Positions 5,542 to 20,823 of a stretch of DNA of 21,740 bases are shown piece by piece. Origin of the DNA: Nitrososphaera sp. UBA217 (GTDB lineage: Archaea > Thermoproteota > Nitrososphaeria > Nitrososphaerales > Nitrososphaeraceae). Within the stretch, counting starts at the first letter, position 1, and each line of letters starts with the position of its first letter. Made by a program: the position numbers and the translations under genes. The stretch is taken from positions 30,822 to 52,561 of the forward strand of contig DAOL01000036.1 in NCBI GenBank assembly GCA_002501845.1, given 5' to 3'. Below the pieces are notes generated by a model. It saw only the letters and a program-made list of their open reading frames with translations, did no database searches and had not been told where the DNA came from.

Positions 5542-6414
5542 TTACGAGAACACCACTCTATTCCTTAACCTTCCAAGCCGTCCAACTTCCACTTCAACAA
5601 TGTCGCCCTGTTGCAAATATTTGAGATGTGAAGAAAGAGATAATACGGTACCGCTTGGTGTTCCTGTCGATATAATATCGCCTGGTTCCAGAGTCATCAC
5701 AAGGCTCAGGCTGTGTATAATCTTATTTACTTTCAAAACCATGTTCGAGGTTGAAGAGTTCTGACGGATTTCGCCATTTACCTTTGTTATAATACTCAGA
5801 TTGTGGGGGTCGGGGACTTCTTCTGGCGTCGTCAGCCATGGCCCGCATGGACCAAATGTATCAAAGCCTTTTGCTCTTGTGTATTGTTTGTCAATGAACT
5901 GTATATCGCGCGCCGATACGTCATTCATTACAAAATATCCCGCAACACAATCAAGTGAGTCCTTCTCCGATACATCCTTGCATTTTTTTCCGATGACAAA
6001 GGCCAACTCGCCCTCATAGTCAAGTTGCGTTACAAATTTGGGGCAAACAATATCGTCAAATGGACCGACTAGACTTGTATGGGGTTTCAAGTATATGACG
6101 GGTTCCCGTGGAGGGAATTTCCCAAATCTCACCCAACTGTCTTGGTCTGAATAGTTGAAGGCCAAACAGATTATCTTAAAGCTTTTTGTAAATGGAGGCA
6201 AGATCTTTAGTTTACCTATTTCGTGGGCAAACGTCAGGTCTTTTGTTCGATCATTTACCTTTTGCAGGCTGCCTCCGAACACGAACTCGTCGAGAGAATG
6301 CGGCAGGCGCAAGCCAGTCTTTTTCACTATTTCATCTCGGGTACTCATCTTCCCTTCAGAATTAACTAGTGCAAACGTCTCCTCGTCATGCAGTAATATC
6401 CTTGCAACCTTCAT
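5542..6414 (-). CDS. Fumarylacetoacetate hydrolase (FAH) family protein
   Basis: Metal-dependent enzyme family that cleaves C-C bonds or decarboxylates small oxo-acids (acylpyruvate hydrolases, oxaloacetate decarboxylases, isomerases). The 290-aa protein has an N-terminal ~70-residue domain and the catalytic C-terminal domain: DYEGELAFVIG with metal ligands E134 and E136, MNDVSARD with D165, KGFDTFGP (K182), and TGTPSG (250-255). All hallmark residues are present, so it should be active; the substrate cannot be read from the sequence. The ATG at 6414 has GAGGT 8 nt upstream. A TATA-like CTTTTAATTTT (about 6457-6467) precedes it, but I see no copy of the block's 13-bp element. It may handle the oxo-acid part of the compound degraded by this cluster. 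Confidence 0.85.
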   Translation of the reverse strand: MKVARILLHDEETFALVNSEGKMSTRDEIVKKTGLRLPHSLDEFVFGGSLQKVNDRTKDLTFAHEIGKLKILPPFTKSFKIICLAFNYSDQDSWVRFGKFPPREPVIYLKPHTSLVGPFDDIVCPKFVTQLDYEGELAFVIGKKCKDVSEKDSLDCVAGYFVMNDVSARDIQFIDKQYTRAKGFDTFGPCGPWLTTPEEVPDPHNLSIITKVNGEIRQNSSTSNMVLKVNKIIHSLSLVMTLEPGDIISTGTPSGTVLSLSSHLKYLQQGDIVEVEVGRLGRLRNRVVFS

Positions 6415-6515
6415 TTAGTAACCTCGACGCCTGGGTCGATAAGCTTTCCACAAAGTAAAATTAAAAGTTATACACAAGCGCTATTGTCAGATCTTGAGTA
6501 TAAAGGGAAAATGGA

Positions 6516-7409
6516 CTAATCTCTAAAAGCTGATTTGATACCTTGCACAAATCTTTTAGAATCAGAAACCCAACCAAATACTCCACCCTGCATCTTGATC
6601 TGCTTCATTGCCGCTTCGTGATTGGCGTGATCCGTAGCGCCAGTGGCGTCTTTCAACACAAGACACCAATATCCATTGTCGTTTGCTTCTCTCATTATTG
6701 TATGCACGCAGACGTCAGTCGTAATGCCAGTTATTACCAAATGAGTAATCCCAAGATTCTTGAGCAAAAGTGGTAGATTACTTTGGCCAAATGCCCCCTT
6801 TCCGGCCTTGTCTACGACGTACTCGCCTTGAACCGGATAGAGGTCTTCAATTATGTCCCAATTTTTCTCGCCCCGCACCAGCAAACGACCCAAACCGCCT
6901 TTAGGAATATCGCCAATGCCAACACCATTTCCAATGAGCTTGCTTCGGAGTAGCTTATTGTAAGGCGCATCGGAGAGATCGGGCAAATGTCCTTCCCTAG
7001 TATGTATGACTTTAATGTCGGTGCCGTTGCGTATATTATACATTACATAGTGGATCGGTTTGATCGGAGCTGAAGTAAGCCCCAAGTCATAGCCCATGAC
7101 GTCAACATAACCCTTGGGCCCGCAGAAGTCTATCTGCATGTCTATGCTCAAAAATGCGGTTCTAGCAGAGTCAAATTCAACATAGGCCGTTTCGCCAAAA
7201 CGCGGACAGTCTTCCACTTCTACTTTGAATAATTTGCCTTTTGGAGGGCCGTAAAGCCAGACAGGAAATTTGAAAGTGCGCGTGATCTTGAATTCCTCAT
7301 AATCCTTTTCAACTCTCTTGAGAATCTCATCTCTACCTCCGGCAGTAAAGTCTTTGTTTGGTACTGGAGACCTCGGGTTGTTTGTCTTGTTGCTCATTTC
7401 AGTGTGCAT
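6516..7409 (-). CDS. Cysteine hydrolase, isochorismatase-like fold
   Basis: Amidohydrolase of the isochorismatase-like superfamily, whose members hydrolyse N-carbamoyl compounds, biuret, ureidoacrylate or nicotinamide. The 297-aa protein carries the expected triad: D90 in LSIDMQIDF, K201 in VVDKAGKGAF, and the nucleophile C234 in GITTDVCVHT, with the cis-peptide TT just before it. The first ~80 residues (including FPVWLYGPPKG) are an extension beyond the ~190-residue core. The start is ambiguous: the ATG at 7409 sits 1 nt from a GGAGG (7411-7415), while the ATG at 7397 sits 13 nt from it. The promoter carries the 13-bp element shared across the block. By context it probably releases ammonia from an amide or ureido intermediate (oxamate is one candidate); the exact substrate is inference. 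Confidence 0.85.
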   Translation of the reverse strand: MHTEMSNKTNNPRSPVPNKDFTAGGRDEILKRVEKDYEEFKITRTFKFPVWLYGPPKGKLFKVEVEDCPRFGETAYVEFDSARTAFLSIDMQIDFCGPKGYVDVMGYDLGLTSAPIKPIHYVMYNIRNGTDIKVIHTREGHLPDLSDAPYNKLLRSKLIGNGVGIGDIPKGGLGRLLVRGEKNWDIIEDLYPVQGEYVVDKAGKGAFGQSNLPLLLKNLGITHLVITGITTDVCVHTIMREANDNGYWCLVLKDATGATDHANHEAAMKQIKMQGGVFGWVSDSKRFVQGIKSAFRD

Positions 7410-7448
7410 TCCTCCATGCCGGGCCTTGAAGAATCAGCCAAATGTAGG

Positions 7449-7497
7449 TCTTTAAGGTTAGGTTTGGCGGTTGTTGCAATAATGCATATATCATAAA
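7449..7497 (-). promoter_or_regulatory. Promoter of the cysteine hydrolase with 13-bp regulon element
   Basis: On the minus strand TTTATGATATATG (7497-7485) is followed 27 nt later by a weak TATA box (CCTTAAAGA, 7457-7449). Start of transcription is expected near 7426. This is the same architecture as at four other promoters in the block. Confidence 0.6.
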
Positions 7498-7566
7498 AAG
7501 GAGATATTTTGTTACCACGTAGCCCAAGACCGGAATTTTTGTCCTGTTCTTGGTGATTCAACATGG

Positions 7567-7950
7567 TTACTCACTGTCGACAAGATTCAGCCGCAAAATC
7601 TCCAACAGATCCTCTGTTCCAACCGGCTTCTCTACCAGTCTTGTAGAGGGAAAAGTTGGAAATGAGGATTTGAATTCGTTAAGATGCTTTTCTCTGAGAA
7701 CTGTCATGAAACAAACACTTACTTTATCGTCTATCTGTCTCATTCTCTTGTACAGCTCAAAACCGTTAATTCCTTTCATCTCTAGATCAACAAGGATTAG
7801 GTCGTATACCCCTTTTTGAAAATCTGAAAATGCTAGCTCTGGATCGGAATAGGGCATCACATCAAAATTGTTGAGCTTCAAGATCATAGTGATCATGTAA
7901 GATGCAGCGGGTGCGGGATCGATCAACAAGATGTTCTTCTTGCGCGGCAT
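7567..7950 (-). CDS. Stand-alone response-regulator receiver domain
   Basis: CheY-like single-domain protein of 127 aa, with no output domain. The fold pattern is clear: ILLID (7-11), YDLILVDLEMKG with phospho-acceptor D55, FMT with T83, and VEKP with K108. The second residue of the usual acidic pair is proline (D11-P12), so Mg2+ binding may be altered. It could be phosphorylated by a histidine kinase encoded elsewhere and act by protein contact. The ATG at 7950 is 28 nt from a palindromic TATA box, so the gene is probably leaderless; a TTG just before it is less likely. A role in the cluster is not demonstrated, and its promoter lacks the 13-bp element. Confidence 0.85.
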   Translation of the reverse strand: MPRKKNILLIDPAPAASYMITMILKLNNFDVMPYSDPELAFSDFQKGVYDLILVDLEMKGINGFELYKRMRQIDDKVSVCFMTVLREKHLNEFKSSFPTFPSTRLVEKPVGTEDLLEILRLNLVDSE

Positions 7951-7972
7951 CAAACAAACATGCTGCTCATTC

Positions 7973-8317: not shown

Positions 8318-8830
8318 TTATTTCTTGCTAAATTGCAAGTCTTCTGATTCCACTTGGTTCTCCAGCATTTCCTTATGTTGGTTCAGCTTTTCCTTAAGTT
8401 GAGGATATTTCAGACTTAAAATCTGACAGGCAAACACTCCCGCATTATGACCCGAGTTAATTGCCATAGTCGCTACTGGCACTCCGCGTGGCATTTGAAC
8501 TATTGAAAGGAGAGAATCCATTCCCTGAAGAGAGGTACCGTCAAGCGGAACTCCTATCACTGGAATAGTAGTAAGCGAGGCTATCATCCCCGGCAGGTGG
8601 GCCGAGCCGTCAGCTGCTGCGATTATGACTTCTACTCGTTTTGATTCCAATTCTGTTATGAACCTAAGAGTTTTCTTTGGAGCCCAGTGAGCGGCAACGA
8701 TACACACTTCATTTTCTATTCCAAATGAATTAAGAACGACTCTTGCGTCCTTCAACTTCTCAAACTGCTTCAACGAAGGGACCACAATACAGACGGTGGC
8801 ACCCTTGGTTAGCTTCTTTGACTCTGCCAT
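8318..8830 (-). CDS. PurE-like protein with altered substrate-binding residues
   Basis: About 170 aa (179 if the TTG at 8857 is used), with the class I PurE fold. It has IIAAADGSAHLPGM, IPVIGVPLDG, and DSLLSIVQMPRGVPVATMAI followed by NAG and ACQIL, all close to N5-CAIR mutase. The residues that hold the ribonucleotide phosphate in PurE are changed. The GSxSD loop is VPSLKQF (Asp19 of E. coli PurE replaced by Gln), and SAHRTP is AAHWAP (Ser43 to Ala, Arg46 to Trp), while the catalytic His is kept. It therefore probably acts on a non-phosphorylated compound, or on a carboxy/carbamoyl transfer within this pathway, rather than in purine synthesis. Its promoter carries the 13-bp element. The ATG at 8830 is preferred, but the TTG at 8857 is only 12 nt from the predicted transcript start and remains possible. 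Confidence 0.75.
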   Translation of the reverse strand: MAESKKLTKGATVCIVVPSLKQFEKLKDARVVLNSFGIENEVCIVAAHWAPKKTLRFITELESKRVEVIIAAADGSAHLPGMIASLTTIPVIGVPLDGTSLQGMDSLLSIVQMPRGVPVATMAINSGHNAGVFACQILSLKYPQLKEKLNQHKEMLENQVESEDLQFSKK

Positions 8831-8892
8831 TCTAACAATATGATTCTTCCTTGCCAAATTCAGAAATGTCCGGTTCGAATGCCTTTCCTTGA

Positions 8893-9036: not shown

Positions 9037-10305
9037 CTATACCTTGTACTTTGAAGCAAATGCGCGCAGAGCCGATTTGAAAGCTTCCATAGGCGGATTA
9101 ACTATTCCGGCTCCTATCATTCCTATGCCCGGATCCTTATGAGCGATTGCGGTGTCGATCACTGGAAGTATTCCGGTTTTTACGACTTTTCTGATGTCAA
9201 TGCCCGTAGCAGTACCTTCAAAGTCGAGTATAGGTACTAGAAAAGTGTCATTCAATGTCGTAGTTATCTCACGCATCTGCTTTGTGTAGTTAAAGGCATC
9301 TTGCGCGGTTCCTCCAACCAAGGAAAGAATGGCAGGAGAGTTCGCTAGCGCAAATGCGCCGACGCCAGTTGTCTCCGTTATCGCGCTGTCACCCATGTCT
9401 GGGTTAGCGTCTTGAGTGCCATACCCTGGGAAATAGAGTCCCTTGACCATTCCTGCCGGGCCTGTAAACCATTGATTCCCCAATCCACTTACCTTTATAC
9501 CAAAATCCACACCATTACGCGCCATAACTGTCACAAGCGTACTATATTCAACATCTTTTGCAGCATTCATCGTAGCTTTGCAGGCGGCCATCGCCAGGCA
9601 AAGGAAAAATATCTCGTTTCCTGAAAAGTACTTCACTATCTGTGAAAGACGTTCCTTATCTTCTCCAGATTCTATCAAGGAGGGCAATATGGAGAGAGCA
9701 AACAGCGCAGTCCCTGCAGACGGTCTGTTGTGGAGCTCATCACCCATGTAGAGTGCCCTCGCCATGATTGATTTTAGGTCGATACCGATGCTGCCACTTG
9801 ACCGAAGTCTGCCTAAAGCCTTGGCCAACGCCGGAGCCAATACCTTTTTCCAGAATTGCAAAGATTGGATTGCCTCCTCGTCGAATGCACCAAACTGTAC
9901 CTTTTGTTCGACTACTCTACCATAGTTCACATTGCCAAATTTTTCATTCTTCACAACAACTACTGGCAAAGAAGGAGAAATCACTCCTGCCATAGGACCT
10001 ACGGCCTCATGGTCATGGTTTGGCGACAGCTCAACCTCGCCTTCTTCGACGAGCTTGACAGCGCCGTCCCAGCTTGATGCCCATCCTTCAAATATTATGT
10101 TGGCCACGACCGCGCCCTTCATTGGTCCACACATGCTACCCCACTTTATCGGGGGTCCTGCGTGAAAAATCGACCTCTTGTTCATGCCAGGCAGAACCTC
10201 TATGGCTGGTTTAACGTCGACAAGATGAGGCTTTGAGGCAAGCACTCTCTGAACAGCCGTTGCATTGGCAGACTCGATCTTTGCCTTTATATCTTCAGGG
10301 GCCAC
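9037..10305 (-). CDS. allG: DUF1116 protein, AllG/YlbE-type subunit of a carbamoyltransferase
   Basis: The 422-aa protein has the DUF1116 length and pattern: AAN-like ESANATAVQRVL and LVDVKPAIEVLPGM at the N-terminus, GPPIKWGSMCGPMKGA, NHDHEAVGPMAGV, GDELHNRPSAGT, a central FFLCLAMAACKATMNAA, and GTATGIDIRKVV near the end. In E. coli the YlbE homologue (AllG) is reported to form oxamate carbamoyltransferase with FdrA (AllF) and YlbF (AllH), releasing carbamoyl phosphate. All three partners occur here. The start is a GTG at 10305, 27 nt below a TATA box, so leaderless. Many bacterial members begin with a further N-terminal segment ending in a VDWRPP-like motif; that piece seems to be encoded separately at 13459-13629. 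The natural substrate here could be another ureido compound. Confidence 0.82.
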   Translation of the reverse strand: MAPEDIKAKIESANATAVQRVLASKPHLVDVKPAIEVLPGMNKRSIFHAGPPIKWGSMCGPMKGAVVANIIFEGWASSWDGAVKLVEEGEVELSPNHDHEAVGPMAGVISPSLPVVVVKNEKFGNVNYGRVVEQKVQFGAFDEEAIQSLQFWKKVLAPALAKALGRLRSSGSIGIDLKSIMARALYMGDELHNRPSAGTALFALSILPSLIESGEDKERLSQIVKYFSGNEIFFLCLAMAACKATMNAAKDVEYSTLVTVMARNGVDFGIKVSGLGNQWFTGPAGMVKGLYFPGYGTQDANPDMGDSAITETTGVGAFALANSPAILSLVGGTAQDAFNYTKQMREITTTLNDTFLVPILDFEGTATGIDIRKVVKTGILPVIDTAIAHKDPGIGMIGAGIVNPPMEAFKSALRAFASKYKV

Positions 10306-10446: not shown

Positions 10447-12360
10447 TCATGGAAAAAAGTGTGTCCCTGAAACGCCATTTATGGCATCTTGGACCTTGTC
10501 CAGACTTGCAATTATGGCTTCTTCGCCTCCGTTCTTGACAAACTGCAAGCAGGCCTGAACCTTTGGCCCCATACTTCCCTCTTCAAGTTGAGAGATTTCC
10601 ACATGATCCCGGCTCAGGATTATTTCTTTTATCAGCCGTTGCGTTGGTTTCTTGTAGTCCAAGTACAAACCTTCAACGTCGGTCAAGATCACGAATTTTT
10701 TTGCCCCTATCTCCCTGGCCAGAAACTCGCCAGCCAAATCCTTGTCAATGACTGCATCCACGCCAAATTTTCCTTCACCGTTTCTGTGCACTACAGGTAT
10801 TCCGCCTCCGCCACATGCCACAACTACAAATCCACCGTCAATTAGAGAACGAATTGCATGTCGGTCGACAATGACGACCGGTTTTGGAGAGGGGACTACT
10901 CTCCTATATTTGGCATTGCTCTGGTACTTCCAGGTAATTGTCGAGTCGCCACTGATAAACGGGTCGAGCTGATCACCGCCTACGTACCCAATCATATTTG
11001 TTCTTGTCATCATGCCAGCAAGCGCTCCAAGAAGGAAGGTACCTTCTTGCTGCATAGGGAACATGGAAGCCACATTTTCCGATCCTACAAGGCCTGTGAA
11101 TACCACAAACTTTGTGTTTGGATAGTCCTTGCCCACCTTGACAGCCGGGTCTCCCCACTGAAATCCATGCGCGATCACGAGATCATAGCCTTCGTTTGCG
11201 CGTGCTCTCAGTACAGGTTCTATGTCCGCAATGGAAATATTATCAACACAAGACACTTCATGGCCATACTTTGACTCAAGCAACTTTGCAGCATTATATG
11301 CCGTAGCACCCCAGCCGCCATCGCTAAACAGGGCATCCGTGACCAATGCTATCCTAAGTTTTCCGCGACCACTCTTAGGCGGAGCAAGTGTCACCTTTGG
11401 TGAATCTATTGTGACGGTGTACTTTTCGGGAATTTCTATTTTTTTGGCCATCACTTCAAGCAACAGCTCTTTTAGCCTGATCTTGACGTCGCCTGGTACC
11501 TTGCTATCTAGGCCATAAAATGGAGCCAGATATACGATTCCATCCCCTACAGCCCCCTTTCCAACTTCAATGCCAGGCTTGAATATCTTGCCTTCGAACT
11601 TGTTTTGAGCGACCATTTGCACAGCTTGGTCAAATGCTTTGTCGATGTCCAGTACGAACGAAGTCAATACCGCTTTTGGAGCTAGGTGGTACTGGTCTCC
11701 CACAGCACCAAAGGCATACACCCCCTTTTCGTTGGCAGCTTCGATGACACCCTTGCCAGATGTATCTGCGACGTGCAGAACGAAATCGGCTCCAGAATTT
11801 ATCTGAAGCAAAGCAGCTTCTTTACCCTTCTCAGGACTGTCCCAATCGCCCAAATAGCTTCCCGTGACCTTTACATTTGGATTTACGTACTTTGCGCCCA
11901 ACCTATAACCTTCAAAAATGTTGACAAGGTTTGCGTATTGGCTCCTTTCGAAATATGGTCCGATGGGCTTGGTCGGGTTGCGAAAAGAAGGGTCATTTTC
12001 ATCAACTACAACTCTGGAGACAAGAGCCACCACTGACTTGTCAATGTGTCTTCTATCAAGCTCATTCTGCAGAGCTTGTACTACCATATAGCCGATAAAT
12101 CCCTGAGTCTCTGCATTGCAAGCGTGAAGCGGAAAAGAGGGTACGGTCTTCTTGGCCATATCATGCCTGATAAGGGTTGATCCCACTTGAGGACCGTTGC
12201 CATGCGTTAGGACTACGCGATAATCGTCTTCTATCAAATTGACAATGCCTCTTGCAGCGAGCTGCACGTTGCGAAATTGTTCTTCAAACGTACCCTTGTC
12301 GTCTCTTTTGAGAAGAGCATTTCCGCCCAAGGCAATGACCACTGTGTCTTTTGAACTCAA
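10447..12360 (-). CDS. arcC: Carbamate kinase with an inserted, circularly permuted BMP binding domain
   Basis: Carbamate kinase makes ATP, CO2 and NH3 from carbamoyl phosphate and ADP. The usual length is about 310 aa; this protein has 637. Residues 1-138 and 485-637 form a complete kinase: VIALGGNALL, VLTHGNGPQVG (51-60), TKPIGP with K131, RRVVPSPKP, VACGGGGIPVV, DKDLAG with K540/D541, and GSMGPK with K600. Between PIGPYF and YRRVVPSPKP, where the protruding lid subdomain belongs, sits a BMP-family binding domain in swapped order. Residues 141-314 equal the C-lobe part (170-343) of the binding protein at 19381-20823. A ~19-residue linker follows, and residues 333-464 equal its N-lobe part. 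No signal peptide, so it is cytoplasmic. Ligand-pocket motifs (FSDGGWGA, HGFQWGD, MQQEGTF, HVADTSG) are kept. The start is a leaderless TTG. A ligand-controlled kinase is inference. Confidence 0.93.
   Translation of the reverse strand: MSSKDTVVIALGGNALLKRDDKGTFEEQFRNVQLAARGIVNLIEDDYRVVLTHGNGPQVGSTLIRHDMAKKTVPSFPLHACNAETQGFIGYMVVQALQNELDRRHIDKSVVALVSRVVVDENDPSFRNPTKPIGPYFERSQYANLVNIFEGYRLGAKYVNPNVKVTGSYLGDWDSPEKGKEAALLQINSGADFVLHVADTSGKGVIEAANEKGVYAFGAVGDQYHLAPKAVLTSFVLDIDKAFDQAVQMVAQNKFEGKIFKPGIEVGKGAVGDGIVYLAPFYGLDSKVPGDVKIRLKELLLEVMAKKIEIPEKYTVTIDSPKVTLAPPKSGRGKLRIALVTDALFSDGGWGATAYNAAKLLESKYGHEVSCVDNISIADIEPVLRARANEGYDLVIAHGFQWGDPAVKVGKDYPNTKFVVFTGLVGSENVASMFPMQQEGTFLLGALAGMMTRTNMIGYVGGDQLDPFISGDSTITWKYQSNAKYRRVVPSPKPVVIVDRHAIRSLIDGGFVVVACGGGGIPVVHRNGEGKFGVDAVIDKDLAGEFLAREIGAKKFVILTDVEGLYLDYKKPTQRLIKEIILSRDHVEISQLEEGSMGPKVQACLQFVKNGGEEAIIASLDKVQDAINGVSGTHFFP
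10969..11940 (-). other. Permuted BMP domain inserted in carbamate kinase
   Basis: This is the DNA for kinase residues 141-464. 11940-11419 corresponds to binding-protein DNA 19888-20409, and 11364-10969 corresponds to about 19492-19887, in opposite orientation and with the two blocks exchanged. The cut in the BMP fold falls after GGDQ and before Y-x-N-x-x-NIFEGY. A Gln is present at both ends (SQYAN and GGDQ), as expected if permutation arose through tandem duplication and trimming. Hand alignment gives about 75% identity for the N-lobe block and about 72% for the C-lobe block. Confidence 0.9.
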
Positions 12361-12474: not shown

Positions 12475-13440
12475 TCAAGTTTCTAAAGTGTAAACCAAGC
12501 TCGGAAGAACTGAAGTCTTGAACACTCGATCTGCAATCGTGAATAGCGCTACAGTCACTCCGGTTGCAAAGTCGAGGCCTGAAGTATGTCCTCTTTTGCT
12601 GATAAGCCGAACTGATTCAATATAGGCTTCCAGATTGTTATGAGCAACGCTGTTTATCATGTGTTGAGCCTGATCATCCAGCAAGTTTCTTGCGCTATAT
12701 TCAATCAATTTGAAGCTCGTCCAAGTTGTGAGAACAGAAAAATCATTGCCCGGAATGACTGCATCTCCAAGCTTCATTGCGTTACCGAGCGAATTTCTCA
12801 TGGCCAAGTAGCCGGCTATGAAATCGTCACCGGCAGGCGTAAACCCCGGGCCTACCCCGCACAGGTGTTTCAGCCCTTTCGATATCCTACTGTCGAATTC
12901 TTGTTGGTCTTTGATCGTGCAATCTGAGATTAGCTGGTCAATGAATCGCGCAAATAAGCCTCTGGTCGTCATGTCAGGATTTAGCAGGCAACCAAATTTG
13001 TTCGCCTGCCCCAATGATTCTAGTTCTGAGAATATTCCATAGCTGTTGCTTGCAAATGTCTGAATTGCATGCGGGTCCAGAGAGCTAAAGTAATTGCGGA
13101 ACCTGTTGCAGTCACCTACTGCGATATTTGCATCTCCAACCAAGAGCGTCGCGCTTGGTTGTTTATCGCGATTTTCATCTTGTATGAATGCCTTTTCGTC
13201 TTCGCGTATGATCCCCTTGAATCCATCGATAGTATTAGAGGCAGTGACATTTAGATTCGCGGGAGAACGAACCTTGCCAAGCGTAATCACCAGAAGTTCG
13301 TCTTCTTTAGTGCGTATGTTAATTGTGGTATCAAAAGCGTTCAAGATCTTTCCAACTGTGCCGCTTCTCTCTTGCAAGAGCCAACCATGCAAATCTCCAA
13401 TGCAGGCGCAAACAAAATTTCGCTGAACTGTCATTGTCAT
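12475..13440 (-). CDS. allH: DUF2877 protein, AllH/YlbF-type subunit of a carbamoyltransferase
   Basis: The 321-aa protein carries the DUF2877 signature GVGPGFTPAGDDF (195-207) followed by IAGYLAM, and a C-terminal KRGHTSGLDFATGV segment. The E. coli homologue YlbF (AllH) is reported as one of three subunits of oxamate carbamoyltransferase. It is the third gene of an operon with fdrA and the 56-aa gene, 18 nt after the latter. The ATG at 13440 is used; an ATG two codons later is also possible. It is expected to act as a soluble partner of the FdrA and DUF1116 proteins. The chemistry of this subunit is not evident from the sequence. Confidence 0.78.
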   Translation of the reverse strand: MTMTVQRNFVCACIGDLHGWLLQERSGTVGKILNAFDTTINIRTKEDELLVITLGKVRSPANLNVTASNTIDGFKGIIREDEKAFIQDENRDKQPSATLLVGDANIAVGDCNRFRNYFSSLDPHAIQTFASNSYGIFSELESLGQANKFGCLLNPDMTTRGLFARFIDQLISDCTIKDQQEFDSRISKGLKHLCGVGPGFTPAGDDFIAGYLAMRNSLGNAMKLGDAVIPGNDFSVLTTWTSFKLIEYSARNLLDDQAQHMINSVAHNNLEAYIESVRLISKRGHTSGLDFATGVTVALFTIADRVFKTSVLPSLVYTLET

Positions 13441-13630: not shown

Positions 13631-15277
13631 TCAGAATTCTCCCCCAAGCGTCAAATATTGTGAATAAATCTTTTCTATATTTCCCTTCCCCCTGAGAGCC
13701 ACCAATGCCGCTCCTGTGGCCGCAATAGCGTTAGTGGGTAAGACCACTGCGCCGACTGATTGTAACTTGCTTATGCTGCTTTCATATCCCTGTGTGTCAC
13801 CAGTGGCTCCGCATACGTGGGATATCACTGAAAGATATCTGCCGCCTCTTTCCGCCAAATCTTTTGCTTCTCTTATCTCTCGAAGAGCTGCTCCAACTGG
13901 ATCAGGGTGCGAGCCATAGCCAAGGACAAAGTCCATCAAAAGAACTGCAACTTCAGGGTCTTTTGCTTCCTCAATAATTCGAAGTTTTCTTATTGTTGGA
14001 TCAATCATTGGATGGGCCCTGCCTTGTGTAAATTCTTCTTCGCCAAGATCCACCACTGAATTTGCTTCGCTTGTAAGAGAGCTGGCCATCTCCTTTACGT
14101 TAAGGATCGGGGCGTTTGAATAAATCAAACCTGGCAATATTTCGCTCAAGATCACTTGAGCTTCGTAAGTAAAGGTCCCGCCTGTGTAAAGTGCTCTGAT
14201 GTATTTCTGGCCATCGCTCAACTTGGTCCATTCTTTTTCCATTGCACGCATTAGATCTTCTTGTGAGACGCTCGTCTTTGCTGTTGCCTTCAAAAATTGG
14301 TCGTTTCCTGCTTGCTTTGCAAATGCCAGGACTGCAGATGCAAGGCTACCCACCTGAATAATTCTTCCTCCAGTCCGGTTATCCTGCATTTGTCGGCCGC
14401 CGATAAATGCCAATACGTACTTTTTCTTGCCTTGTTGCGATATATGCTTGATAATCTTTTCTTGAATTGAAGGGGACGGAGGCTTTGAAACGATCCCAAT
14501 AACTGAGATATCGGGGTCTTTCTCAAGCAACTTAATACACTCTAACATCATTAGGCCGCCTATCTTCTCCTTTGTGTCACTTCCTCCCACACCCAAACCA
14601 TGCTTTACACCGATTCCGCATTGGTCAAGCAAAGTAATAACTTCTTGAAGCCCGGTTCCTGCGGCCGCAACTATTCCTACTGGACCTTCTTTAACAGCAT
14701 TAGAAAAGCCTATGCCTTTGCCGTTAATGATTGAAGTGCCGGCACCAGGTCCGAGTATCAATACGCCATTCTTGACAGCACGCTCTTTGATTTCCAGCTC
14801 GTCTTCTATTGACACATGATCGCTGAATATCTGCTGGTGTATACCTCGATCTATTAGCTTTAGTGAAATATCTTTGACGTGCTCACCGGGAATTGATATA
14901 AGAACAAGATTTGCATCTGGCATCGCATTTAGAGCAGAGTCTAAATCAGTCAATTTAGATTTCTTCTCGTCGCCGGACGAAATTTTCTCTGGTGATTCGA
15001 GCATTTCGTTAGCCTTTTGGATAGCTAGATTCAATGAATCTTGGTCCTGGGCCCTGACAGCTATAATAATGTCAGTTTCTTTTGCCTCCTCAATTAGGGT
15101 AGGCGGGAATCCAAGACGAATAAGTATTCCCTTGTTGGTAGGTGTCGCCATTATTACTGAAGCTTCTGTTATTCCCCTTGAAATGCGCCTAACCTTATCA
15201 GAAATCTTCATTAGCTGCAAAGAGTCGCGATAGAAATTCGGCTTTATTATGGCATGAAACAGATCTGGTTGTGTCAA
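13631..15277 (-). CDS. allF: FdrA-family protein, AllF-type subunit of a carbamoyltransferase
   Basis: The 548-aa protein is related to succinyl-CoA synthetase subunits. The N-terminus KPNFYRDSLQLMKISDKV and ITEASVIMATPTNKGIL are typical of FdrA. It then has a CoA-ligase-like core with LILGPGAGTSIINGKGIGF, VGIVAAAGTGLQEV and KHGLGVGGSD, followed by FTYEAQVIL, HPMIDPTIR, VLLMDFVLGYGSHPDP and a VISHVCGATGDTQGYE segment. The E. coli length (about 555) is similar. FdrA (AllF) is reported to build oxamate carbamoyltransferase with the DUF1116 and DUF2877 proteins. The start is a TTG at 15277, 9 nt below the predicted transcript start. It heads an operon with the 56-aa gene (1-nt gap) and the DUF2877 gene. 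No copy of the 13-bp element is clear upstream. Confidence 0.87.
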   Translation of the reverse strand: MTQPDLFHAIIKPNFYRDSLQLMKISDKVRRISRGITEASVIMATPTNKGILIRLGFPPTLIEEAKETDIIIAVRAQDQDSLNLAIQKANEMLESPEKISSGDEKKSKLTDLDSALNAMPDANLVLISIPGEHVKDISLKLIDRGIHQQIFSDHVSIEDELEIKERAVKNGVLILGPGAGTSIINGKGIGFSNAVKEGPVGIVAAAGTGLQEVITLLDQCGIGVKHGLGVGGSDTKEKIGGLMMLECIKLLEKDPDISVIGIVSKPPSPSIQEKIIKHISQQGKKKYVLAFIGGRQMQDNRTGGRIIQVGSLASAVLAFAKQAGNDQFLKATAKTSVSQEDLMRAMEKEWTKLSDGQKYIRALYTGGTFTYEAQVILSEILPGLIYSNAPILNVKEMASSLTSEANSVVDLGEEEFTQGRAHPMIDPTIRKLRIIEEAKDPEVAVLLMDFVLGYGSHPDPVGAALREIREAKDLAERGGRYLSVISHVCGATGDTQGYESSISKLQSVGAVVLPTNAIAATGAALVALRGKGNIEKIYSQYLTLGGEF

Positions 15278-15317: not shown

Positions 15318-15508
15318 TTAGGCTGATCATTGCTTTAGTTATCGCATAATTGTTTTTTTTGCAACGCAAGGATGAGGCCGCGATCCCAAAACTGCAAAAT
15401 ATCCTAATAATGGGCCTCAATCTGTGGAATTTATGGAAAACACGAAATGTTTGCTCAGACTCATTTATTCCAACAATCAGAGGCCGAACAGTATCTATCT
15501 TTTCAAAC

Positions 15509-15557
15509 TTTATGATATATGACAAAAATCTCATGATTGAATACCAAAGTATAATAT
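15509..15557 (+). promoter_or_regulatory. Promoter of the BMP transporter operon with 13-bp regulon element
   Basis: TTTATGATATATG (15509-15521) is followed after 27 nt by a TATA box (GTATAATAT, 15549-15557). Transcription should begin near 15579, which is 129 nt (43 codons) upstream of the ATG of the ATPase. A second TATA-like AGTATAAAG lies at 15655-15663. Between the fdrA TATA box and this element (15318-15508) I see no other gene or signal. Confidence 0.65.
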
Positions 15558-15707
15558 CGAGTTATAGGACAATGTTCTATTGCGTTTTTAAAACGAAAGT
15601 TTGATCGGGACAACAAGGGAACAAGCCTTCCTGACGATATCAACGGCAACGATCAGTATAAAGCAAAAAAGCTATCTTCAGTTGGTCCCGGCGATCCCGT
15701 TCTAAAG

Positions 15708-17216
15708 ATGAAGGGAATCACCATAAAGTTTGGCGATGTTGTGGCGAACAACAATGTAGATTTCGACCTGCTAAAGGGAGAGGTACATGGTCTCCTTGGT
15801 GAAAACGGAGCAGGCAAGACAACTCTGATGAGCATACTTTATGGCCTGTATCAGCCGAACGCCGGAGAGATCATTGTGAAGGGAGAGAAGACGACTATCA
15901 AATCGCCAAACGATGCAATGGAACTTGGGATAGCAATGGTTCACCAACACTTTCTGCTTACTCCACCTCATTCAGTCACAGAAAATATCATTGTTGGCCT
16001 AAAATCCAGGGGGCTATTTCTGGACCTCGCCAGCGCTGAAAAGAAGATCTTGTACTTGGCTGAAAAGTACGGACTGAAGATCGATCCAAAGGCAACTATT
16101 GCCGATTTAGCAGTTGGAGAGCAACAGCGAGTGGAGATAATAAAGGCGCTATACAGGGATATTGATATCCTCATCCTGGACGAGCCTACATCCATGTTGA
16201 CCCCACAGGAGGAAAAAGCGCTATTTGCTACTTTACAGTCGATGGTAAAGCAGGGCCTTTCTATAATATTCATTACACACAAGCTCCACGAAGTAATGGA
16301 AGCAAGCAATAGAGTGACAGTCCTTCGCGGTGGCAAGGTCGTGGGGACAGTCAAAACATCGGATTCTAGTGAATCAGAGTTGGCAAAGATGATGGTTGGT
16401 CGATCTATCATTGAAAGTGTTGAACCGAAAGCATCTGCAAAAAACCCTGCAATTCTCCAGCTGAAAAACGTGTCAGCACTCAACAATGCAAAAGTTAAAT
16501 TCCTTAAGGATCTTTCGCTCGAACTGAGAAAGGGGGAAATCCTTGGAATAGCCGGGGTCGATGGAAACGGCCAAGCAGAGCTTGCTGAGGTAATTGCGGG
16601 GCTGAGAAAGGTCCAGAGCGGCGAAATAATAATGGACAATACTGCAATAACCAACGCTGCCCCGAGAAAAATTAGAGAATGGGGGTTGGCCTATGTGCCA
16701 CAAGACAGGCTCAATACTGGACTGATCTTAGATTATTCGATAGCTGAAAATCTGATACTTGATCGGTGGTACAAGGATGAATACTCTGGCAAGATATTTT
16801 TGAAACAAGAAAAGATGAAGGAATTTGCAGAAAAGGTCGTGACTGATTTTGAAGTAAAAACCCCTGGTATCAATGTCCCGGTTAACTCGTTGTCCGGCGG
16901 AAATTTGCAAAAAGTTTTGATGGCTAGGGAACTAGCAAGAAACCCCAAAGTCCTAGTTGTCCACAATCCAACGAGGGGTCTTGACATCGGTGCGACAGAA
17001 TACATCCACAAACAACTCGTAAAGCAGCGCGACAACGGAGTCGGCGTCCTAATGATCTCACTTGACCTGGATGAAATTTTAACTGTTTGCGACCGGCTTG
17101 CAGTCATTTACGAGGGCAAGATTGTGTCAGTGATGGACAGGAGAGACGCAAACGTTGACGACATCGGCCTCATGATGGGGGGCAAAGTTGCAGTTGCGTC
17201 GGAGGGGAAAAAGTGA
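15708..17216 (+). CDS. ABC transporter ATPase of a BMP/nucleoside-type importer (two ABC domains)
   Basis: Energises import together with the two permeases downstream. The 502-aa protein has two ABC domains. In the first, Walker A GENGAGKT (31-38), Q-loop MVHQHF, signature AVGEQQ (135-140), Walker B DILILDEPTS (153-162) and H191 are intact. The second has a degenerate Walker A (GVDGNGQAE, 283-291, no Lys), signature LSGGNLQK (395-402) and VVHNPTRGLD instead of a normal Walker B. This asymmetry is usual in the sugar/BMP-type double ATPases. The start is uncertain: the reading frame is open for 43 more codons to the predicted transcript start, including an in-frame GDPVLK just before MKGITIKFG, which resembles the usual N-terminus of the family. 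The stop overlaps the next gene by GTGA. Confidence 0.9.
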   Translation: MKGITIKFGDVVANNNVDFDLLKGEVHGLLGENGAGKTTLMSILYGLYQPNAGEIIVKGEKTTIKSPNDAMELGIAMVHQHFLLTPPHSVTENIIVGLKSRGLFLDLASAEKKILYLAEKYGLKIDPKATIADLAVGEQQRVEIIKALYRDIDILILDEPTSMLTPQEEKALFATLQSMVKQGLSIIFITHKLHEVMEASNRVTVLRGGKVVGTVKTSDSSESELAKMMVGRSIIESVEPKASAKNPAILQLKNVSALNNAKVKFLKDLSLELRKGEILGIAGVDGNGQAELAEVIAGLRKVQSGEIIMDNTAITNAAPRKIREWGLAYVPQDRLNTGLILDYSIAENLILDRWYKDEYSGKIFLKQEKMKEFAEKVVTDFEVKTPGINVPVNSLSGGNLQKVLMARELARNPKVLVVHNPTRGLDIGATEYIHKQLVKQRDNGVGVLMISLDLDEILTVCDRLAVIYEGKIVSVMDRRDANVDDIGLMMGGKVAVASEGKK

Positions 17217-18280
17217 GCGTGCTTGATGTAGTCACTCAGACCCGTAACAAGCTTAGAGATGTAAAGTTTTTTGTACCCTTCGCATCTGCGAGTCTCGCTT
17301 TCGTAGTAGGGGCCATTATCCTCGGTGCAACAGGCGTGGATGTAGGCAAAGCCTATACTATCATGTTCGAAGGAGCTTTTGGATCCGCGTTTGGATTCGG
17401 AGACGTATTGCTGAAGACTACTTCGCTTCTGCTGACAGGGCTTGCTGTTTCAGTTGCATTTAGGTGTAAGCAATGGAACATTGGGGCAGAAGGCCAACTC
17501 TACATGGGCGCATTAGGCGGGACACTCGTGGGCATATCTGTAGTAGGCCTGATTCCAGGTCTTGCAATTTTTCTTGGAATAATTCTAAGTTTTATTTTTG
17601 GAGCAGTTTTTGCTCTCGTTCCGGCCGTGCTTAAAGTAAAGTTTGGAGTGAACGAGGTTATTTCAACTGTGCTTCTAAACTTCGTTGCATTTCTTTTCAT
17701 ATCATTTCTATTACATGGACCCATCAAAGCACCTGGGTTTAATCCATATTCTCCGGAGATCGGCAACGCATCACAAATGCCAATAATATTTCCAGGAACG
17801 CGGCTTCATGCAGGTATTATCGTAGCAGCTTTGGCAACGGTAGGAGTTTATTATTTATGGAAAACCAAGATCGGCTTTGAAATCAAAAGCGTTGGAGCAA
17901 ACATCAAAGCAGCGCGCTATGCTGGAATGAACATTACAAAGAGCGTCCTTGTCACTCTGGCAATAAGTGGCGGGCTAGCAGGAATTGCGGGAGGCATGCT
18001 CGTTTCTGGAGTCCAGCACGTTCTAATAGAAGGAATATCACCTGGATACGGATTTATCGCAGTTATTATTGCACTCCTTGGCAGGCAGCATCCAATAGGT
18101 GTAGCAATAGTAGCATTCTTCTTTTCGGTTCTTATGACAGGTTCTGAAACCATGTATAGAAGCCTTGGCGTGCCAAGTGCATTTTCCATGACCCTTCAAG
18201 CGCTGGTCCTTGTATTTGTGCTGGTCGGGCAATTATTCGTAGTCTGGCTAGGCAAAAGAAAGGTCGGAGGTGCACGATGA
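17213..18280 (+). CDS. BMP/nucleoside-type ABC transporter permease 1
   Basis: Membrane-spanning half of the importer, 355 aa, with about eight to ten hydrophobic helices. It belongs to the BPD_transp_2 family (YufP-like): the FRCKQWNIGAEGQLYMGALGG motif (about 83-103), LKVKFGVNEVISTVLLNF, and KIGFEIKSVGANIKAARYAGMN with the following TKSVLVTLAISGGLAG, the EAA-like loop that docks on the ATPase. The start is a GTG overlapping the ATPase stop by 4 nt, and its own stop overlaps the start of permease 2 by ATGA, so the three are co-translated. Confidence 0.9.
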   Translation: MSVLDVVTQTRNKLRDVKFFVPFASASLAFVVGAIILGATGVDVGKAYTIMFEGAFGSAFGFGDVLLKTTSLLLTGLAVSVAFRCKQWNIGAEGQLYMGALGGTLVGISVVGLIPGLAIFLGIILSFIFGAVFALVPAVLKVKFGVNEVISTVLLNFVAFLFISFLLHGPIKAPGFNPYSPEIGNASQMPIIFPGTRLHAGIIVAALATVGVYYLWKTKIGFEIKSVGANIKAARYAGMNITKSVLVTLAISGGLAGIAGGMLVSGVQHVLIEGISPGYGFIAVIIALLGRQHPIGVAIVAFFFSVLMTGSETMYRSLGVPSAFSMTLQALVLVFVLVGQLFVVWLGKRKVGGAR

Positions 18281-19221
18281 AGTTGGCTGGTGAAACCGAA
18301 GCCGTTATCATTGGCATAATTGCATCAGGCATTCGTTTGGCCACGCCTGTGCTTTTTGCTGGATTGGGGGAGAAAATCGCAGAGCGTTCAGGCATTCTAA
18401 ACTTAGGAATTGAGGGTATGATGCTAATGGGAGCATTTGGCGGCTTTATAGGGACATATTTTACCGGAAACTATGTCATTGGAATTTTGCTTGCAATGGC
18501 ATCGGCAGGAATACTGGCGGTCCTAAAGGGATTCTTGAGCATTACCATAAGGACCAATCAACTGGCTGCGGGTCTGGCGATATGGTTGCTGGGGACGGGG
18601 CTCGCTGCGCTTCTCTACAGGTTGACCTTTGGCGTTCGAACAGCGGCACCAAGTGTGGAGCTCATGCCTAAGATTGACATTCCGGGCCTTTCGAACCTTC
18701 CGGGTATTGGACCAATCCTGTTTAATCATGATCCGCTAGTCTACATTGGCTTCTTGCTGGTGCCTCTAACCTACATTTTCATATTCAAGACCAACCTTGG
18801 TCTCAAAATAAGGACGGTTGGTGAAAATCCAAAACAAGCGGATGCTCTTGGTGTTAATGTATACAAGATACGCTACCTTGCTGTCATAGTTGGAGGAGCG
18901 TTGGCAGGGATTGGAGGCGCGTACTATTCGCTTGTTCAAACGGGATATTTCCTCGAAAATATTACTGGAGGAGCTGGATGGATTGCTCTGGCTCTTGTAA
19001 TTTTTGGCAGATGGAAGTCTCAGTGGATATTGGTTGGAGCGCTTATCTTTGGCATGGTCGACGCATTTCAGCTTGGTCTTCAGGCGCTAGGTACAACCTT
19101 GCCCTACCAGTTCCTCCTCATGCTTCCGTATTTGATTCCAATTGCAGTCCTTGTGGGGTTGTACAAGAGGACTGGGGCGCCGGCCGCCCTTGCCACACCT
19201 TATGTCAGAGGGGAGAGATAG
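18277..19221 (+). CDS. BMP/nucleoside-type ABC transporter permease 2
   Basis: Second membrane subunit, 314 aa, YufQ-like. It shows FAGLGEKIAERSGILNLGIEGMMLMGA (about 27-53), TNQLAAGLAIWLLGTGLAA, and NLGLKIRTVGENPKQADALGVN with the next helix, again the ATPase-docking loop. About eight helices. It is paired with permease 1 as a heterodimer, the usual arrangement for BMP-dependent importers. Transcription probably ends or weakens after it, since the binding protein has its own promoter 90 nt downstream. Confidence 0.9.
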   Translation: MKLAGETEAVIIGIIASGIRLATPVLFAGLGEKIAERSGILNLGIEGMMLMGAFGGFIGTYFTGNYVIGILLAMASAGILAVLKGFLSITIRTNQLAAGLAIWLLGTGLAALLYRLTFGVRTAAPSVELMPKIDIPGLSNLPGIGPILFNHDPLVYIGFLLVPLTYIFIFKTNLGLKIRTVGENPKQADALGVNVYKIRYLAVIVGGALAGIGGAYYSLVQTGYFLENITGGAGWIALALVIFGRWKSQWILVGALIFGMVDAFQLGLQALGTTLPYQFLLMLPYLIPIAVLVGLYKRTGAPAALATPYVRGER

Positions 19222-19359: not shown

Positions 19360-19380
19360 AATCCCGTCTGGATGCCATCT

Positions 19381-20823
19381 ATGAAGTCATATCTCAAGAA
19401 AGCTTCAGTGGTTGCAGTTATTGCAGCACTAGTGCTAGTATCTTCGATGGCAATAGTCGCGCCGCTTCAGATTGCGAATGCTCAGGGTGGAAAACAGCTT
19501 AAGATAGCCCTGGTAACCGACGCACTTTTTAGTGATGGCGGATGGGGGGCTGCCGCACATGATGCGGCCAAGCTATTAGAGACAAAGTATGGTTACCAAG
19601 TTGCCTATGCTGAGAGCATAGCTATTCCGGACATAGAGGCTACCTTAAGGCAATATGCACAGGACGGCTATGATCTTATAATAGCTCATGGATTTCAGTG
19701 GGGAGATCCTGCGGTCAAGGTAGGCAAGGATTATCCAAATACAAAGATTGTAGTCTTTACAGGTCTTGTCAGTTCAAATAATGTGGCATCGATCTTTCCA
19801 ATGCAACAAGAAGGCACGTTTTTGCTAGGAGCCCTCGGTGCAATGATGACCAAAACGGGAACATTGGCATATGTAGGTGGCGATCAATATCCAAACATTA
19901 TCAATATTTTCGAAGGCTACAAGCAGGGTGCAAAGCTCGTTAAACCGGACATCAAAGTTATTGGAACCTATCTAGGAGACTTTGACAACCCTGCAAAGGG
20001 CAAAGAAGCCGGATTGGCACAGATCAACAACGGGGCCGACTTTTTGTTTCACGTGGCAGATACTTCAGGCCATGGTGTAATTCAGGCGGCCAAGGAAAAG
20101 AAGGTTTATGCATTTGGTGCTGTTTTGGACCAAAGCGCGTTAGCGCCTGACACTGTGCTTACCTCATTCGTTCTTGACATGGATAAGGCATTTGACCAGG
20201 CTCTACAGATGGTTGTACAAAACAAGTTTGAAGGCAAAATATTCAAACCAGGCATTGAAGTCGGCAAAGGAGCTTCAGGCGATGGCATTGTATATTTGGC
20301 ACCCTTCAATCAACTGGACAGCAAAGTACCTGCAGATGTAAAAGCAAAACTCCAAGAACTTACACAGGCTGTAATTGATAAGAAAATACTGGTTCCTGAG
20401 AGAATAAAGACGACCAGCGATATCTCGGCGACTGCAAAGCTGGGCGACCAGACATACACGATCACAGGCATATCCAGCGGAGGGAAAATCAATTCGGCAA
20501 CGATCAATTCAGGCAAATCTATTAAATTTGAATTCGACAAGGCCGGTGACATAGAGCTGACGCTGCCAAAGAGCGTGATAGACGGGATAACTGTCGTAAA
20601 GGCCGGAGATAAAACCGTAGAGTTTCAAGAAATAAGTAGTTCAGACTCGGCAAGCACTATCAAATTCGTATTACCCGAGGGAAGCAGTTCAGTTGAAATC
20701 TCTGGAACCACAGTTGTACCAGAGTTTGGTACGTTAGTTGCTATTGTACTTGCTGCACTGCTTGTAGGGGTAATAGGAATTGTTCGCTTCAAGGGGGCTT
20801 TGCTAAACCTAGGAAGGCCCTAG
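19381..20823 (+). CDS. BMP-family substrate-binding protein with PEFG-CTERM-like membrane anchor
   Basis: Extracellular receptor of the importer, 480 aa from the ATG at 19381 (483 from the ATG at 19372). Domains: signal peptide to about residue 35 (LPLQ-like APLQIANAQ end); BMP domain about 40-343 with LVTDALFSDGGWGA, IIAHGFQWGDPA, FPMQQEGTFLLGAL, YVGGDQ and HVADTSG; a ~100-residue beta-rich spacer with DQTYTITG and FEFDKAGDIELTLP; then VVPEFGTLVAIVLAALLVGV plus Arg/Lys (447 onward), a PEFG-CTERM-like tail recognised by archaeosortases in Thaumarchaeota. BMP proteins of known function mostly bind nucleosides; the ligand here is unknown. The 19381 start is preferred because the TATA box places the mRNA end there. 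Its binding domain is the close parent or sister of the one inside the carbamate kinase. Confidence 0.9.
   Translation: MKSYLKKASVVAVIAALVLVSSMAIVAPLQIANAQGGKQLKIALVTDALFSDGGWGAAAHDAAKLLETKYGYQVAYAESIAIPDIEATLRQYAQDGYDLIIAHGFQWGDPAVKVGKDYPNTKIVVFTGLVSSNNVASIFPMQQEGTFLLGALGAMMTKTGTLAYVGGDQYPNIINIFEGYKQGAKLVKPDIKVIGTYLGDFDNPAKGKEAGLAQINNGADFLFHVADTSGHGVIQAAKEKKVYAFGAVLDQSALAPDTVLTSFVLDMDKAFDQALQMVVQNKFEGKIFKPGIEVGKGASGDGIVYLAPFNQLDSKVPADVKAKLQELTQAVIDKKILVPERIKTTSDISATAKLGDQTYTITGISSGGKINSATINSGKSIKFEFDKAGDIELTLPKSVIDGITVVKAGDKTVEFQEISSSDSASTIKFVLPEGSSSVEISGTTVVPEFGTLVAIVLAALLVGVIGIVRFKGALLNLGRP

Follow-up and report, generated by a model that had tools for sequence, protein, structure and literature searches.

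What does a solute-binding domain do in the lid of a metabolic kinase? The question is raised by a 21,740-nt stretch of DNA from Nitrososphaera sp. UBA217 (contig DAOL01000036.1, positions 30,822 to 52,561; hereafter the window). A gene at 10447–12360 encodes the carbamate kinase AllK fused to a circularly permuted BMP domain, which is inserted in the kinase lid. The initial annotation had read here an open frame of 637 codons without giving its strand. The frame is real and lies on the minus strand, with a TTG start at 12360 and a stop whose end, in the open reading frame, is at 10447; the product has 637 aa. We hold it rather probable that the product is the catabolic kinase AllK, belonging to an oxalurate operon, and that the permuted BMP domain in its lid likely gates the enzyme. 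The best reading of the sequence is that the fused kinase would be a natural permuted-binding-protein switch, sensing the ligand of an importer encoded nearby.

The kinase is divided between the two ends of the protein, as its motifs had suggested. Residues 1–141 (11938–12360, minus strand) comprise GGNA, HGNGPQVG, K131 in TKPIGP and the first lid residues, YFERSQ. Residues 485–637 (10450–10908, minus strand) comprise YRRVVPSPKP, CGGGGIP, K540/D541 and K600. Alignment to the Pyrococcus furiosus carbamate kinase (1e19) pairs fusion residues 6–141 with chain residues 4–141, and 478–637 with 154–314, so that the whole carbamate kinase fold is recovered from the two halves together. From the limits of this alignment (141 and 154), ∼12 lid residues are replaced by ∼336. 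The fusion thus differs from AllK/ArcC enzymes, which have a short lid; its protruding subdomain is no longer uninterrupted. What AllK/YbcF and ArcC (PMC9843812, PMC11326118; PDB 1e19, 3kzf) share with it are the fold, the catalytic residues, the allFGH operon and the presumed reaction of carbamoyl phosphate with ADP. In Mycoplasma penetrans carbamate kinase, the protruding subdomain spans Lys126 to Val159; it shifts as a rigid body, a movement reported to be required for catalysis, and Lys126 corresponds to Lys128 of Enterococcus faecalis (PMC3474736). Given the shift in numbering of the 1b7b match (query 7–141, chain 5–138), the latter is equivalent to K131. By alignment, the BMP insertion is inside the protruding subdomain. 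Thirty-nine fusion proteins (that of the window and 38 database matches) align end to end with identical junctions, and in all of them K131, K540, D541, K600 and G13/N14/G54/N55/G56 are identical and the GGN and HGNGPQ motifs are kept. Pfam recognizes AA_kinase split over two stretches (94 bits), and the NCBIfam carbamate kinase model NF009007 scores 314.8 bits, above its cut-off of 266; NF009008 and NF006926 fall below theirs. Residues, fold and operon place together predict that the enzyme is a carbamate kinase (AllK/ArcC).

The intervening residues form a BMP domain read in the wrong order. Pfam finds Bmp (PF02608) in two stretches (177.2 bits, E 5e-52, gathering cut-off 24.1), and a genome search places profile positions 142–261 upstream of 2–134; the native N-to-C order is absent from the fused gene. 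The standalone bmp gene of the window matches profile positions 3–262 as one piece, and a profile search of the window's genome (69% complete) gave no third Bmp gene. Residues 142–314 (11419–11937, minus strand) make up most of the C-lobe, including a short segment crossing to the N-lobe. They are followed by a variable linker from the old BMP C-terminus to the old mature N-terminus (residues 315–333; 11362–11418, minus strand), in which none of the 19 positions is invariant among the 39 fusions. Residues 334–464 (10969–11361, minus strand) contain the N-lobe, to about 435, and then the first helix and strand of the C-lobe (∼436–464). The second junction, residues 465–484 (10909–10968, minus strand), is the lid end (WKYQSNAK) and is modelled with low confidence. 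The order C-lobe, linker, N-lobe, proposed from the sequence at the outset, agrees with the swapped Bmp profile; the assignment of 333–464 to the N-lobe as a whole does not stand. Lobe limits were transferred by alignment from AtzT, whose domain 1 comprises residues 27–133 plus 257–287 (PMC6834077), which puts the first crossing between lobes at about fusion residue 435. Residues ∼436–464 therefore belong to the C-lobe, and the permutation cut opens a cleft-side loop of the C-lobe, not the hinge. In the secondary structure of the model, it falls between strand 456–460 and helix 143–159. As the initial annotation had supposed, both kinase junctions enter the BMP fold at one point; this is the C-lobe loop beside the ligand cleft, and both junctions sit, as mapped, on the C-lobe alone.

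The putative ligand pocket was mapped on the guanine site of AtzT, one of the nearest solved binding proteins (6pi5; PMC6834077). The comparison with BMP/PnrA proteins also includes Lbp (7x0r), BmpD (6shu) and PnrA (2fqw), crystallized, according to their entry titles, with guanosine, adenosine and inosine. The AtzT equivalents are W350 (Tyr45), G399 (Ser97), F400 (Phe98), N144 (Glu165), W173 (Trp194), D199 (Asn218) and S201 (Asn220), with T441 (Thr139) in the second shell. Positions were counted by hand on the alignment, and the placement of D199 and S201 hinges on a two-residue gap. N144 (11929–11931, minus strand) lies three residues past the kinase lid residue Q141. Seven of the eight pocket positions, N144 among them, are invariant in 39/39 fusions and T441 in 38/39, against a background of 111 invariant positions in the 323 of the domain (P 0.003). 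Both lobes, the aromatic sandwich positions (W350 and W173) and the cleft loop positions are shared with BMP/PnrA proteins. Unlike these proteins, the fused domain is circularly permuted, inserted in an enzyme, changed at several hydrogen-bonding residues and devoid of a signal peptide. With a kinase match starting at residue 6, the sequence leaves no room for such a peptide, and the inserted domain is predicted to stay off the cell surface.

Structure prediction is consistent with two intact domains. AlphaFold2 was run with an alignment of 73 rows (41 fusions and 32 kinases), from which standalone BMP rows were dropped for misaligning into kinase columns. The kinase and BMP parts both fold, as the initial annotation had required; how they are positioned relative to each other is left unpredicted by the model. 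Among the structure matches is AmiC of the amidase operon.

The fusion recurs in relatives. A protein search gave 1409 matches, and among the 120 listed, 70 span 94% or more of the query with 64–99% identity, including the window's own protein or a near-identical one (P0001) and a fusion of Nitrososphaera viennensis (P0016); the suggestion to look for the same architecture in relatives was thus borne out. Of 70 genomes of the family, four carry the fusion, intact in two and truncated at a contig end in the other two; all four belong to the window's genus, which counts 18 genomes. A scan of contigs with the fusion alignment (best 80 of 592 matches) was uninformative on distribution, one of its two patterns, THGNGPQV, being generic. 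Three odd-looking rows of that scan were rejected as fusions, being a tandem pair (L043), an ordinary kinase (L041) and a kinase cut by a contig end (L024); the remaining rows were taken from the listing as ordinary carbamate kinases. Other kinase fusions were sought with residues 1–141 among proteins of ∼350–1115 aa, where 120 of 933 matches were listed and 813 were weaker. Among those listed, 73 belong to this fusion family, rearranged or cut forms included, and 47 have no Bmp domain in precomputed Pfam annotation, two of these carrying peptidase domains. Three of the 47 sequences were examined and none has a lid insertion (one tandem repeat, one N-terminal extension, one C-terminal peptidase).

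The fused gene takes, by its position, the place of an ordinary AllK in the oxalurate operon. In the window, it is flanked by genes for two oxamate carbamoyltransferase subunits, AllG (9037–10305, minus strand; PF06545) and AllH (12475–13440, minus strand; PF11392). FdrA/AllF follows at 13631–15277 (minus strand), with Ligase_CoA and 387.6 bits to NF004760, short of the cut-off of 433. An ABC importer is encoded on the plus strand (15708–19221) by an ATPase gene (15708–17216) and two permease genes (17213–18280 and 18277–19221). Next to it is the standalone, unpermuted BMP binding protein (19372–20823, plus strand), a paralogue of the inserted domain; it has a signal peptide and, by eye, a C-terminal PEFG with a hydrophobic tail. 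The PEFG-CTERM model is not reported for this protein, and two related records, P0090 and P0083, score weakly (22.0 and 23.6 bits, cut-off 25). The window and N. viennensis (L117) both have the fused gene exactly between allH and allG, with bmp after nupC. Thirteen stretches were compared, 10 of them with an unfused kinase. This kinase follows allH in L118, L119, L120 and L128 and is followed by allG in L118, L119, L128 and L129; bmp adjoins allF in the opposite direction in L118, L119 and L120, where the kinase open reading frames have 322–332 codons from stop to stop. Different genes (purE; FAH, biuH and nupC) lie next to the kinases of L126 and L127, and those of L123, L124 and L125 have none of the window's genes beside them. 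Position of the bmp gene also varies: it leads the importer operon in the unfused L118–L120 and closes it, after nupC, in both fused genomes compared. The fusion may have coincided with a rearrangement of the importer operon. PurE-like (8318–8857), BiuH-like and FAH-family (5542–7409) genes adjoin the all operon, and their substrates in these archaea are a question raised in PMC12625717. Between the BiuH-like and PurE-like genes, a lone open reading frame (7567–7953) resembles, by eye from its translation, a response-regulator receiver.

The simplest reading of the sequences is that the fusion arose once. In a kinase tree of 69 sequences, all 29 fused rows group together as a single clade (99/89; 99% of 200 bootstrap trees), to which four unfused Nitrososphaeraceae kinases are joined (95/87); the standalone kinases L123 and L124 of the same genus are diverged and stand apart from this clade, with weak placement. 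Single-lobe trees were made of 75 rows for the N-lobe (29 identical removed, 2/100 proteins unmatched by the extraction pattern) and 71 for the C-lobe (14 identical removed, 16/100 unmatched). The fused label changes four times on the N-lobe tree and three times on the C-lobe tree, with few columns and mostly weak placements. The clearest mixing of fused and standalone rows unites P0016 with P0090, both of N. viennensis (100/99). The N-lobe tree places the deepest fusion, P0069, with four standalone rows (97/90); the C-lobe tree does not include it. What counters two or more separate captures of the domain is the kinase tree together with the common junctions, and only these, not the lobe trees.

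Mixing between the two gene types has a visible trace. In L117, two stretches are exactly identical between the fused and the standalone gene, one of 346 bp in the N-lobe (15801–16146 = 7319–7664) and one of 269 bp in the C-lobe (15404–15672 = 6827–7095); they stand in swapped order, and identity beside these tracts falls to 54–82%. In one of the two genomes compared, the two copies have thus apparently been homogenized across the permutation by gene conversion. Furthermore, all four crossover products of a fused gene and an inversely oriented bmp gene exist in databases. These are kinase N-part, C-lobe and exported tail (P0083); BMP, second N-lobe and kinase C-part (P0071 and P0073–P0077, with a signal peptide except in the P0077 record); kinase N-part, C-lobe, N-lobe and C-lobe (P0067); and signal peptide, N-lobe and kinase C-part (P0089 and P0105). 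They are either real inversions of a several-kb segment or errors of short-read assembly.

A mechanism can be proposed from the E. coli pathway, where AllFGH produce oxamate and carbamoyl phosphate from oxalurate and phosphate, and AllK uses the carbamoyl phosphate to make ATP (PMC11326118). The archaeal AllFGH would catalyse the same conversion, and the fused AllK would turn carbamoyl phosphate and ADP into ATP and carbamate, yielding ammonia, the energy substrate of the organism. K131 would reach carbamoyl phosphate only on closure of the lid. Both lid strands are predicted to enter the BMP C-lobe at the loop with N144 in ligand-contact position; since the loop carries this residue, ligand binding and N-lobe closing would alter the position or stiffness of the lid. 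The likelier coupling would be a ligand-dependent ordering of the N144 loop together with closing of the N-lobe over the lid, and the effect could be activation or inhibition. The signal is probably an imported compound (a purine, a nucleoside or a ureide-like molecule), since the importer's binding protein and the domain are paralogues, and in view of the apparent conversion in N. viennensis. That the kinase is switched by the solute its operon imports, gene conversion retuning sensor and transporter to the same ligand, has about an even chance of being right. Engineered switches have the same design, above all permuted GltI inserted in a non-permuted red fluorescent protein, next to other switches made by domain insertion (PMC6335823), which agrees with the likeness to laboratory constructs seen at first sight. 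They differ in that they are laboratory-made, whereas the fused kinase evolved and has a metabolic enzyme as its output.

Several points weigh against such a switch. The split kinase remains below the TIGR00746 cut-off (336.7 versus 358.25 bits). The distribution is narrow, with fusions in 4/400 genomes of the class (E 1e-60), the same four as in the family. Four hydrogen-bonding positions are unlike those of AtzT (Ser97 to Gly, Glu165 to Asn, Asn218 to Asp and Asn220 to Ser); ligand identity is therefore not readable from the pocket. At the junctions, the predicted local distance difference test score (pLDDT) is <50, as it is in kinase stretches 57–69 and 73–84, and the full-length predicted template modelling score is 0.53; the low junction and full-length values mean that no particular lid–BMP geometry is predicted. 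The gene pair of the window is without recent conversion, with 72% (N-lobe) and 68.5% (C-lobe) identity and a longest exact run of 20 bp. The placement of both junctions on one lobe weakens the simple picture of the initial annotation, in which BMP closing could pull the two kinase halves, and leaves lobe closure no way of pulling them apart between lobes. Finally, the proposed coupling to a ligand is argued from sequence and operon context, not from biochemistry.

The fused gene is not an assembly artefact. A joining of two genes in assembly might be suspected from the rearranged products in databases (the ten crossover records above) and from contigs of two relatives (G002:C52 and G011:C14) that break off within the fused gene's BMP part, at residues 342 and 419. 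Such ends are expected if near-identical repeats break assemblies. The suspicion is contradicted by the same junctions in 39 proteins, including that of N. viennensis with its single-contig genome (2,527,938 bp) and those on contigs of 1.73 and 3.11 Mb (P0058 and P0065), and by the unfused kinase at the same operon position in relatives; we give it almost no weight. A BMP copy tolerated as a neutral passenger, its binding lost, would fit the narrow distribution and the variable linker. It is improbable, as the fusion was kept through the depth of the clade (the 70 listed matches of high coverage), the pocket positions are invariant, the domain folds in prediction and the nonsynonymous divergence (dN) of the lobes, 0.13–0.22, is like the 0.14–0.21 of the kinase parts (synonymous divergence not being computable for 9/10 pairs).

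Other explanations grant the domain a function of its own. As a scaffold, it would dock the kinase to AllFGH or the importer, capture solute or shield carbamoyl phosphate, kinase activity being unchanged. Carbamoyl phosphate is labile, with a half-life of ∼5 min at 37°C (PMC6022934). The genes for kinase, AllFGH and importer lie together, and model confidence at the junctions is low. Docking needs neither a conserved ligand pocket nor insertion in a catalytic lid, and we regard a scaffold as a minority possibility, though a real one. The domain might also moonlight as a cytosolic ligand buffer or as a receptor for another partner, the kinase being a mere carrier. Binding-protein-like cytosolic regulators are known, and the match to AmiC points the same way; location in the catalytic lid points to the kinase as the output, which makes moonlighting as unlikely as a passenger.

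Parts of this gene group have been described. Purine-degradation loci of ammonia-oxidizing archaea with allFGHK, biuH, purE, FAH and a bmpA–nupABC importer are reported in PMC12625717, where biuH and allFGHK are named for N. viennensis; the main text of that paper contains no word beginning with chimer- or permut- and neither fusion nor fused. No description of the fusion was found in literature titles or abstract openings, a search outside which most subscription papers and all supplements lie. New here are the cut in the C-lobe loop, the gene-conversion signature and the four crossover products.

If the kinase is indeed gated by its inserted domain, the permuted-binding-protein switch of protein engineers would have a counterpart in nature, and carbamate kinase would be under allosteric control through its lid. 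The conversion tracts suggest a genetic route for co-tuning an exported receptor with the domain of a cytosolic enzyme, even across the circular permutation of one partner. The fusion also gives a handle on which organic nitrogen compound ammonia oxidizers of the Nitrososphaera type import via BMP/Nup. In these soil archaea, the gene group likely contains a fused enzyme responsive to the compound whose import it is predicted to serve.
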